Positions 1,357-21,361 of a stretch of DNA of 21,683 nucleotides are shown here, in pieces (within the stretch, counting starts at the first letter, position 1; each line of letters opens with the position of its first letter). The translations under genes were made by a program, and so were the position numbers. This DNA is from a virus. Where the stretch lies: positions 1-21,683 of IMG/VR virus record IMGVR_UViG_3300031706_000056. One strand, 5' to 3'. Under the pieces are notes generated by a model. The model saw only the letters and a list, made by a program, of their open reading frames with translations, had not been told where the DNA came from and searched no databases.

Positions 1357-1390
1357 AAAAAAAAAGTGTTACATTGCTGCAACACTTTTT
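1357..1390 (-). terminator. Rho-independent terminator after the tmRNA
   Basis: A 10-bp perfect stem (1361-1370 with 1381-1390) has a 10-base loop. On the minus strand it is followed by nine T. It sits directly behind the tmRNA coding piece and separates it from the secreted-protein gene. Confidence 0.88.
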
Positions 1391-1434
1391 CCTGCTATTT
1401 TTGGTAACAAAGTATAACTACTTCGTAGAAGCCC

Positions 1435-1464
1435 TTAGGCTGCTAATGCGAAATTTTCATTTGC
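1435..1464 (-). other. tmRNA proteolysis tag frame, ANENFALAA-stop
   Basis: The codons GCA AAT GAA AAT TTC GCA TTA GCA GCC TAA give ANENFALAA. The ALAA end matches the ClpXP/ClpAP degron of proteobacterial tags such as ANDENYALAA of E. coli. The stop codon lies in a small AGCC-TAAG-GGCT hairpin, as usual for tmRNA helix 5. A look-alike ANENY sequence occurs 19 bases upstream, out of frame. Confidence 0.9.
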
Positions 1465-1554
1465 GTTTATAGTTTTCGTTCGCGATAACCGTGCTTACAT
1501 CCGGGTAACTCCACTTCCTCTCTTACGTGTATCGATACCTGCTTCACCCCCATC

Positions 1555-1625
1555 ATAAACACACTGCTTTCTACCTCTACAGTGTACACTGATTACGCTG
1601 GTATAACGTTCCACAGTGTGTTTAT
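1555..1625 (-). repeat. 12-bp inverted repeat closing the excised loop of the pre-tmRNA
   Basis: Bases 1555-1566 (ataaacacactg) and 1614-1625 (cagtgtgtttat) are perfectly complementary. They extend the 7-bp acceptor stem, giving one helix of about 22 bp in the precursor, with a C-A mismatch and a G-U pair. This would hold the acceptor and coding pieces together for end processing. The loop between them contains the palindrome cagtgtacactg (1580-1591). Confidence 0.85.
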
Positions 1626-1690
1626 GGTGGAGGTGCCGGGTGCCGCCCCCGGGTCTACTCCGTCGTTGCTAAAGTTTCAACGTTACATAC

Positions 1691-1698
1691 TATTTATA
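1691..1698 (-). promoter_or_regulatory. Perfect T4 late promoter box TATAAATA before the tmRNA
   Basis: The minus strand reads exactly TATAAATA. T4 geometry puts the start near 1685, just before the tmRNA acceptor piece, so the RNA is probably made late in infection from its own promoter. The box lies just beyond the stop of the 101-residue gene. Confidence 0.7.
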
Positions 1699-1704
1699 AC
1701 ACGT

Positions 1705-2010
1705 TTAACTAAACATGTCAAGTTCTTTTGATGCTTTTGTCTTTGTCTTCTTAGCTTCAGGACGAATTGGTTCTAGCCATGTATCAGCAATGTATGCTTT
1801 GGGTGATGGTCCCAATTGTATATCTATGTCTTCGCCTTGTATCCACCAATAATGATCATGTATCATACAAGTGCAAGTCATGCTATGTGCTTCAAACTGT
1901 TCGCCAGCTTCAAACTTACCAATGTACTCGACTACCTTTACAGCTCGTCCAATGTTACTCGGATTCACTGAATGTATGATGCGGGCAAAGTCGCCCTGCA
2001 CACACTTCAT
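1705..2010 (-). CDS. Conserved phage hypothetical protein, 101 residues
   Basis: The protein starts MKCVQGDFARIIHSVNPSNIG and has a GRAVKVVEYIG strand, a Cys/His-containing middle (MTCTCMIHDHYWW) and the segment YIADTWLEPIRP before a Lys-rich tail. The layout (QGDxARI at the start, G+xVxVV, then DxWLxPI near the end) is one I recall from small hypothetical proteins of many tailed phages, probably a small beta-barrel. No function is known to me. The start codon overlaps the stop of the 55-residue gene upstream (ATGA), so the two are translationally coupled. It is the last gene of the operon that begins with the HAD phosphatase. Confidence 0.72.
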   Translation of the reverse strand: MKCVQGDFARIIHSVNPSNIGRAVKVVEYIGKFEAGEQFEAHSMTCTCMIHDHYWWIQGEDIDIQLGPSPKAYIADTWLEPIRPEAKKTKTKASKELDMFS

Positions 2011-7490: not shown

Positions 7491-9800
7491 TTATATATTA
7501 CAAGCTTCACAATCTTCATCTTCAAACTCTAAACTTGCTGCCGACTGCATTAGCTGGTCTAATGGTTTTTCATCTTCTAACTCATTAGGATCTACTTTGT
7601 AATCATATGTGTTCTGATAGTAACTTGTCTTCCATCCCATCTTATAAGTTGTTAGTAGGTCAGTCATCATTACACTCATTGGCACCTCATTGTCTGGAAA
7701 CTGTGTTGGATTATAACTCCAGTTGCCGCTAATTCCTTGATCAAAGAACTTTTGCATTACTGCAACTACATTAATGTATCCAGTGTTGCTAGGCATGTCC
7801 CACAACAATGTATAATGGTTCTTTAACGTTTGATACTGCGGAACAATCTGCTTAAGAGGCCCTTTCTTTGACTTTTTAACGGACAAGTATCCTCTAGGTG
7901 GCTCGATTCCATTGGTTGCGTTCGACACAACGGAACTGCTTTCTGAAGGCATTTGTGCGGACAATGTGCTGTGCCGTAATCCGTGCTCGAGTATGTCTGC
8001 GCGAAGAGTATCCCAATCATAATTTAACTTGTGCTCTACAATAGTATCAACATCTTTCTTATAAGTGTCTATAGGAAGGATGCCATCACTGTATTTAGTG
8101 CGGTTAAAGTAATCACAGGCACCGCGCTCTTTTGCAAGTTTGTTACTTGCTTTTAACAAGTAATACTGGAACGCTTCTGACAAGTCGTGTACTAGCTGCC
8201 ATGACTTAGGGTTGTCAAACTTAACATGATTCCTAGCTAGGTAATGTGCTAAACCAATGTAACCTACACCTAAACTACGTCTTGCTTTTGTGCTAATTTC
8301 AGCCGCTTTAATTGGATACTTTTGATAGTCAATAATCTCTTCTAAAGCACGTACTGCAAGCTCACAGAGGTCTTCTAAGTCGTCTAACGCACGTAGGGTG
8401 CCTACATTTATAGCTGACAAAATACATAGCGCAATTTCGCCTTCTTCATCATCAATATGATTAAGCGGCTTAGTTGGTAATGTAATCTCTTGGCACAGGT
8501 TGCTCATATAAACAGTATCTTTGAATGAGCTGTGGGTATTGCAGTGATCAACATTCATAATATAAATGCGTCCTGTTTCAGCACGTTCTTTGATTAGAGC
8601 AGAGAACAATTCCATTGCTGGGATAGTCTTCTTCTTAATGCTTGTAGCACGTTCATATTTTTCATACATCTCTTGGAACTTTGCTGGCTCACCAAAGTAT
8701 GCTTCGTACAAGCCTGGTACATCATGTGGGCTAAACAACGTAATGTCGCCGCCACTAAGCAGGCGTTCGTACATAGTTAGGTTAAGTTGTATTGAGTAGT
8801 CTAACTTGCGTACACGGTTGTCTTCGGTGCCCTTGTTGTTCTTTAGAACAAGGATGTCTTCAATCTCTTGATGCCAAAAAGGAAAATGTGTAGTTGCACT
8901 GCCACCGCGCACACCATTCTGTGTACAACATCTTACTGTTGCTTCAAACTTCTTTAGGAACGGGACAATACCTGTGTGTGCTACTTCGCCGCCTCTAATA
9001 CGAGAATTTACTCCTCTGATTCTCCCTGCATTAATGCCGATACCCGCTCTCTGTGCAGTGTATCTACCAATCGACATATCGCTTGCGAAGATACTATCAA
9101 GGGTATCGTCAGCGTCAACAAGGACACACGAAGCAAACTGTCGCACAGGAGTTCTGACTCCTGCCATAACCGGCGTTGGGATATTAACTTTAAAAAGTGA
9201 GGTCGCATCGTAGTATCTCCTTACATAGTGCATACGTGTTTCTGCAGGATAGTTAGAAAATAACGTTGCTGCAATCATCATGTACATGAACTGGGGACTC
9301 TCAAAAATCTCACCACTTGAACGATCCTGGCAAAGATATTTGTCTACAACCTGACGCAGACCTGCATAGGTAAAGTTCTCATCACGCTTGTGACGGATGT
9401 AACTATCTAGTGTTGCAATCTCTGCTTCTGTATATTTTTCTAGTATCTCTGCATCGTATACATTGCGTGAAATATTGCGTTCAATATTTTGCTGTAATGT
9501 AATTGCATTATACTCACCAAAAACCATCTTGTTTACACTGTAACTTAATAAACGTGCTGCTGCGTACTGATAGTTTGGAACGTCTAAACTAATAAGATCG
9601 TTTGCGCTACGTACAAGAACCTCTTGTATTTCGTTAGTACTCATACCATCATAAAATTGGATATTTGCATTCATTTCAATTTGGCTACTACTAACACCTG
9701 CTAAATCTAAACAGGCATGTTCAACTACTTTGTGAATTTTATCTATATTGAGATGTTCTTTTGTACCGTCGCGCTTGACGATCATTGTTCCATTTGACAT
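7491..9800 (-). CDS. nrdA: Ribonucleoside-diphosphate reductase large subunit (class Ia)
   Basis: The 769-residue protein is complete. Residues about 5-95 form an ATP-cone regulatory domain. Active-site Cys225 (SCVLVDADDT) and Cys459 (IALCILSA) are the redox pair; N434, C436 and E438 (SNLCQE) carry the thiyl radical and catalytic residues, equal to E. coli N437, C439 and E441. Y727-Y728 (SYYQN) form the end of the radical relay. The C-terminal tail has the shuttle pair C764/C767 (CEAC) that glutaredoxin reduces. A ribosome site (AGAGGAA) precedes the ATG. A late-type box (AATAAATA, 9824-9831) lies just upstream, yet nrdB has a sigma70-type promoter, so the two subunits may be controlled separately. 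No intron or intein is seen. Confidence 0.97.
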   Translation of the reverse strand: MSNGTMIVKRDGTKEHLNIDKIHKVVEHACLDLAGVSSSQIEMNANIQFYDGMSTNEIQEVLVRSANDLISLDVPNYQYAAARLLSYSVNKMVFGEYNAITLQQNIERNISRNVYDAEILEKYTEAEIATLDSYIRHKRDENFTYAGLRQVVDKYLCQDRSSGEIFESPQFMYMMIAATLFSNYPAETRMHYVRRYYDATSLFKVNIPTPVMAGVRTPVRQFASCVLVDADDTLDSIFASDMSIGRYTAQRAGIGINAGRIRGVNSRIRGGEVAHTGIVPFLKKFEATVRCCTQNGVRGGSATTHFPFWHQEIEDILVLKNNKGTEDNRVRKLDYSIQLNLTMYERLLSGGDITLFSPHDVPGLYEAYFGEPAKFQEMYEKYERATSIKKKTIPAMELFSALIKERAETGRIYIMNVDHCNTHSSFKDTVYMSNLCQEITLPTKPLNHIDDEEGEIALCILSAINVGTLRALDDLEDLCELAVRALEEIIDYQKYPIKAAEISTKARRSLGVGYIGLAHYLARNHVKFDNPKSWQLVHDLSEAFQYYLLKASNKLAKERGACDYFNRTKYSDGILPIDTYKKDVDTIVEHKLNYDWDTLRADILEHGLRHSTLSAQMPSESSSVVSNATNGIEPPRGYLSVKKSKKGPLKQIVPQYQTLKNHYTLLWDMPSNTGYINVVAVMQKFFDQGISGNWSYNPTQFPDNEVPMSVMMTDLLTTYKMGWKTSYYQNTYDYKVDPNELEDEKPLDQLMQSAASLEFEDEDCEACNI

Positions 9801-21353: not shown

Positions 21354-21361
21354 TATAAATA
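21354..21361 (+). promoter_or_regulatory. Late promoter box TATAAATA, rightward
   Basis: A perfect T4 late box. The predicted start is near 21367, and a GGAGG ribosome site (21373-21377) precedes the lipase ATG at 21385. Confidence 0.72.

Follow-up and report, generated by a model that had tools for sequence, protein, structure and literature searches.

The window, by which we mean all 21,683 nt of IMGVR_UViG_3300031706_000056, encodes a ribonucleotide reductase, a glutaredoxin, a PD-(D/E)XK exonuclease and structural proteins. The ribonucleotide reductase is closest to those of marine T4-like cyanomyophages (~70% identity), and because of this gene content the assignment to a marine-type T4-like phage is well supported. 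The minus strand of positions 1357–1698 holds a complete, phage-borne tmRNA gene of the circularly permuted, two-piece type (Table 1). A sequence-only reading of this DNA had flagged 1391–1690; the feature overruns that interval at both ends, with a late promoter on one side and a terminator on the other. Along the minus strand, TATAAATA is followed by the acceptor piece, an intervening sequence (IVS), the coding piece with its tag frame, and a terminator-like hairpin. The earlier reading had placed an acceptor piece (T-arm, CACCTCC, A, CCA) ahead of a coding piece beginning GGGGGTG; all of these elements could be located, as could the ANENFALAA-stop frame and the 12-bp inverted repeat said to close the excised loop. 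The proposed 7-bp acceptor stem forms seven of seven pairs, including a G3–U70 wobble, and the gap between its strands, put at about 77 bases, measures 77 nt (ACCA plus the 73 nt of the IVS). The 5′ end of the acceptor piece (~1687) is an estimate from the start of the Rfam model and the position of the promoter. The model also aligned GUAAC (1686–1682) in the acceptor piece against GUUAC (1509–1505) in the coding piece.

Table 1. Features of the permuted tmRNA locus in the window
Feature	Position	Strand	Basis or remark
Upstream neighbour gene, 101 aa, phrog_2529	1705..2010	-	marker for gathering relatives
T4-type late promoter TATAAATA	1691..1698	-	sequence; fixed position in relatives
tmRNA acceptor piece	1625..1687	-	RF04321 match begins at 1687; encoded CCA at end
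T-arm, 5-bp stem CCGGG/CCCGG, loop GGCGGCA (alpha-type)	1652-1636	-	sequence and Rfam
Acceptor stem 3′ half CACCTCC, contains U70	1635-1629	-	7/7 paired with 1551-1545; covariation, 150 loci
ACCA	1628-1625	-	sequence
Intervening sequence (IVS), 73 nt	1624-1552	-	closed by 12-bp inverted repeat, 1624-1613 with 1567-1556
tmRNA coding piece, starts GGGGGTG (1551-1545)	1391..1551	-	RF04321 and RF01849 alignments; 3′ end provisional
Tag frame ANENFALAA and stop, hydrophobic end	1464-1435	-	resume codon GCA inferred
Intrinsic-terminator-like hairpin, then T run	1357..1390	-	fold -17.7 kcal/mol, z -4.3; missed by consensus scan

The Rfam search that the sequence-only reading had called for matched the minus strand to RF04321 tmRNA_permuted (103.2 bits, E 1.7e-19, cut-off 47) and to RF01849 alpha_tmRNA (81.2 bits, E 6.8e-21, above its own cut-off); it returned no beta_tmRNA or cyano_tmRNA match for the window. 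With alpha_tmRNA as the best clade model, the RNA falls into the alphaproteobacterial subgroup. Three relatives (L005, L048, L103) matched beta_tmRNA rather than alpha_tmRNA. ARAGORN made no tmRNA call in the window and overlooked 11 of 24 related loci, indicating that this tool under-counts the group. The acceptor stem together with the IVS hairpin folded at –39.3 kcal/mol (z = –4.7; none of 200 shuffles as good), the window IVS alone gave z –2.7 and the 336-nt transcript z = –3.8; these scores and energies refer to structure without pseudoknots.

Relatives were gathered through the 101-aa neighbour gene, yielding 74 viral loci; where the contig extends far enough, most have a tmRNA at the corresponding position. 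The position of the gene is thus kept in related phages, where the earlier reading had proposed to look for it. Among phage isolate records the neighbour gene had no relative, and a blastn search of phage isolates returned only a 40-nt match, within a Rhodobacter phage gene. Further loci were added by a DNA pattern search; this second set had the late promoter in its pattern and was therefore excluded from the promoter claim. For covariation we used 150 viral loci located without requiring any pairing beyond the initial GGG. Loss of the acceptor pairing and of the tag in relatives had been named as grounds against a tmRNA, and both proved to be retained: pairs 5–7 were paired in 97.8% of cases, whereas 10,000 shufflings of the partners averaged 66.8%, peaked at 72.4% and never came as high, and 94 of 108 tags end in LAA. 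All four Watson–Crick types are present at pairs 5–68 and 6–67, and G3–U70, the alanine identity element, occurs in 150 of 150 loci. In 26 loci the tag was missing, mostly through contig ends or limits of the search pattern, and real tag loss was rejected. On this alignment, the acceptor stem is preserved through compensatory changes across viral loci, and such covariation is stronger evidence against chance than the fold z-scores. The proposal of a phage-borne, permuted two-piece-type tmRNA in a T4-like marine phage is accordingly backed by Rfam, gene content and covariation. A decaying host relic, or the remnant of a prophage attachment site, is extremely improbable: tmRNA genes are common integration sites and acceptor-half remnants occur in two relatives (L005 near 1063, L018 near 6224), but the compensatory changes over 150 loci and the invariant G3–U70 contradict decay, promoter, tag and terminator are intact, and the position beside a phage gene is conserved.

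In the set gathered via the neighbour gene, which was unselected for promoter, 38 of 40 tmRNAs have TATAAATA at –45 to –48 relative to the T-arm, placing it 46–47 nt upstream of that arm in nearly all relatives. Eight of the ten copies of this motif in a 116-kb close relative are intergenic, in a record that is 87% coding. TATAAAT is given as the core of T4-like late promoters in PMC9004378 and PMC3037559. The motif aligns on the UAUAUU (–10-like) box of the alphaproteobacterial alpha_tmRNA model, which suggests that a bacterial promoter was apparently swapped for a phage late one, and no sigma-70-type promoter was found in 1200–1900. With a fixed late promoter and a terminator of its own, the window tmRNA probably forms a late transcription unit by itself. 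A promoter of this type favors activity late in infection, in contrast to the early phase suggested for phage Melnitz (PMC9004378). We prefer a role in rescuing ribosomes at that stage, at a time when broken mRNAs would accumulate; rescue during the destruction of host mRNA, as proposed earlier, would also be plausible. The sole other TATAAATA in the window (21354–21361, plus strand) lies close to where a plus-strand reading frame starts, the other genes being mostly on the minus strand.

Across 134 distinct tmRNA loci the IVS spans 8–264 nt. Its ends pair as a closing helix at a constant distance of 4 nt from the coding piece. This helix has at least 9 of 10 pairs in 97 of the 104 distinct IVSs of at least 29 nt, with a mean of 9.3 pairs compared with 7.1 when partners were exchanged. 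The window and L007 share a core that is 100% identical over 179 nt (45 nt plus the T-arm, the acceptor half and 110 nt of the coding piece), yet their IVSs measure 73 and 29 nt. Conversely, the IVS of the window recurs in the distant tmRNA of L053 with 71 of 73 positions identical (97.3%), while the coding pieces agree at only 62%. The former pattern, a core at least 93% identical with an IVS below 60%, was seen in 21 locus pairs, and the reverse, an IVS at least 85% identical with a core below 70%, in five; L018 and L072, for instance, have a common 103-nt IVS at 99% and cores at 58%. These comparisons show that the IVS behaves as an exchangeable cassette, swapped between tmRNAs as a unit. 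An assembly error is unlikely because L007–L009 stem from three separate metagenomes and the window IVS recurs in another contig.

IVSs that lack a convincing ORF, that of the window among them, form families whose members sit in different tmRNAs. One such family of ~80 nt (L046, L128, L177, L240, L241) turned up nowhere but in tmRNA IVSs (5/5); its hairpin arms co-vary by eye and the RNA is apparently structured. A search for Rfam families inside the IVSs of 16 loci gave no match. The window IVS contains no convincing ORF, the ORF test not being significant there, so that its cargo may be inert; a GTG ORF was rejected since it has no Shine–Dalgarno sequence and extends into the coding piece.

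ORFs fill most of several IVSs of ~100–264 nt. A shuffle test required a start, a Shine–Dalgarno-like motif and a stop, all inside the IVS. ORFs of at least 21 codons reached p ≤ 0.023 in nine IVSs (L152, L036, L168, L037, L150, L164, L156, L180, L144); the cargo ORFs of L100, L106, L130, L171 and L199 failed the test. The best-case cargo gene is MYYVMNLKTGSIIDTYDSLLEASELVNKHPEWTIMVKYKDR. Between L150 and L164, this 41-codon gene beginning MYYV differs by eight synonymous and three non-synonymous codons (dN 0.046, dS 0.66, dN/dS ~0.07). Its relatives sit in the IVSs of tmRNAs of six acceptor-stem types, and it also stands alone as an ordinary phage gene in other contigs (IVS-borne and stand-alone loci together: L150, L164, L037, L214–L239). 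As judged by these codon differences, at least one IVS-borne gene is under purifying selection and coding. A Shine–Dalgarno-like NAAGGA opens 8 of the 104 distinct IVSs, within the left arm of the closing helix, and all eight bear an ORF. By sequence, one cargo protein has two CxxC motifs and some resemble membrane peptides, with weak PHROGs hits only; the MYYV mini-protein, the zinc-ribbon and the 77-aa cargo protein had no relatives in phage isolate records.

That an ordinary host tmRNA was captured, performing host-like rescue with a variable IVS as neutral stuffer, seems unlikely to us. Every tmRNA feature is canonical, as this explanation would have it, and known permuted tmRNAs discard the IVS. 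The window IVS and many others are without an ORF, and in cellular genomes unusual IVS contents have been recorded as single cases, namely a tRNA-Ala gene and a repeat (PMC11915505). A neutral insert is nevertheless difficult to reconcile with purifying selection on an IVS ORF that is found in six tmRNA types, with non-coding families kept while the cores differ, as in L018/L072, and with a non-coding family confined to tmRNA IVSs. We favor a functional, late-expressed phage two-piece tmRNA that uses its IVS as a cargo slot, a reading to which we assign a probability of roughly 80%. A further-reaching version is offered tentatively, its odds falling a little short of even: the IVS of phage permuted tmRNA genes may be a dedicated cargo site, where mini-genes and structured RNAs would travel within the gene of a stable RNA; as cassettes exchanged between phages they would be driven by the strong late promoter of the tmRNA, short RNAs or mRNAs would be released by tRNA-processing enzymes, and the closing hairpin (with NAAGGA in eight inserts) would couple translation of the cargo to maturation of the tmRNA.

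In the favored reading, host RNA polymerase and T4-type late factors of the phage would transcribe ~330 nt, starting at TATAAATA and stopping at the terminator. The covariation shows that the acceptor strands pair and, stacked on the IVS hairpin, give an extended tRNA-like acceptor stem. By analogy to known permuted tmRNAs, host RNase P would cut 5′ of G1551 and host enzymes would trim the 3′ end to the CCA at 1625, thereby freeing the 73-nt IVS and two pieces joined by base pairing. Charging by host AlaRS would proceed via G3–U70, and host SmpB and EF-Tu would deliver the RNA to stalled ribosomes, where ANENFALAA would be added; host ClpXP would be expected to read a tag of the LAA type. Finally, the discarded IVS would be free to change in its interior; in this phage group, sequence comparison shows it to be swapped as a whole between tmRNAs and to hold structured RNAs or tiny genes. 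Late expression, as well as translation or stability of the released IVS, is the more conjectural part of this scheme. Eight related phage records (fragments, the longest of 116 kb) yielded no SmpB gene, so that SmpB of the host would be needed. The same finding would suit a decoy that titrates SmpB to block trans-translation in the host; for mycobacteriophage DS6A, whose RNA comprises little beyond a tRNA-like domain, such titration has been proposed (PMC4131195). We regard a DS6A-like decoy as very improbable, since here a full coding piece and the tag frame are kept, with LAA-ending tags in most relatives, rather than a tRNA-like domain only. Assigning a host by the tag was rejected: an exact search of genome contigs for ANENFALAA-stop hit only Clostridia, Spirochaetes and Victivallis, which we took as convergent.

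The sequence-only reading knew of no described permuted tmRNA in a T4-like marine phage. That such RNAs are undescribed is not supported, as a 2022 publication had reported two-piece tmRNAs from marine phages. That report (PMC9004378) describes phage Melnitz with a two-piece tmRNA, a permuted tmRNA in 17 of 47 contigs of the Melnitz cluster, and 53 phage tmRNA types that ARAGORN calls two-piece, of which 50 come from marine or aquatic phages. The window tmRNA resembles those of Melnitz (a Methylophilales phage), Pelagibacter phage Mosig and others in being a permuted RNA of alphaproteobacterial type borne by marine T4-like myophages. The Melnitz-type tmRNA follows an early promoter and has a glutamine riboswitch linked to it, whereas the window gene has a conserved late promoter and a different genomic neighbour (the 101-aa gene), and its group has swappable IVS cassettes, of which the accessible text makes no mention for the Melnitz type (PMC9004378). 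In L123, the permuted tmRNA is followed ~1.6 kb downstream by a glutamine riboswitch (RF01739, 5124–5172), which recalls the link described for Melnitz.

With the alphaproteobacterial two-piece tmRNA (RF01849; merged permuted model RF04321) the phage group shares piece order, T-loop type, the G3–U70 acceptor stem, the encoded CCA and the tag frame; it differs by a late phage promoter in place of the –10-like box, a short tag, and an IVS of 8–264 nt that holds cargo in relatives. Phages also encode tmRNAs in one piece (mycobacteriophage Bxz1 group, Bacillus phage G; PMC4131195), but there the gene is unpermuted and has no IVS. tmRNA genes with group I introns also have a removed insert able to carry a protein gene, a homing endonuclease in 36 of 883 (PMC11915505). 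There, however, a self-splicing intron sits in the T-loop (PMC11915505), whereas the phage insert is the IVS of a permuted form, presumably cut by tRNA-processing enzymes, and its cargo consists of non-endonuclease mini-genes or structured RNA. In the 2025 paper on the tmRNA database, 79 phage sequences are listed, and the IVS contents mentioned are a single tRNA gene and a single repetitive element, both from cellular genomes (PMC11915505). A search of the open-access literature brought up neither exchangeable IVS cassettes nor protein genes borne by an IVS. The comparison suggests that the late promoter with its own terminator, the exchangeable IVS and the tiny genes within it go beyond published work as found. 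With a late tmRNA encoded by a phage, one could test whether phages take control of ribosome rescue while virions are being produced. Through the exchangeable IVS, genes as small as 31–77 codons might be carried and expressed compactly within a non-coding RNA gene; such genes would be systematically absent from phage annotations because ordinary gene callers and ARAGORN miss much of this layout. One RNA core seen with many inserts also represents a natural recombination system.

Some loci depart from the common layout. The IVS of L149 (near the reverse complement of 1603–1941) looks tRNA-like, with a T-arm GGTTCGAATCC and a long closing stem, and received no ARAGORN call. The acceptor-half copies in L005 and L018 consist of an acceptor piece and an IVS without a coding piece and may be remnants or a reduced form; the one in L005 bears an ORF (MNWDWHWISWFKG...). 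L172 holds two different permuted tmRNA genes (8159–8493 and 9090–9481), with the tags ANDNFASEDYALAA and ANENFALAA and with tRNA genes between them.
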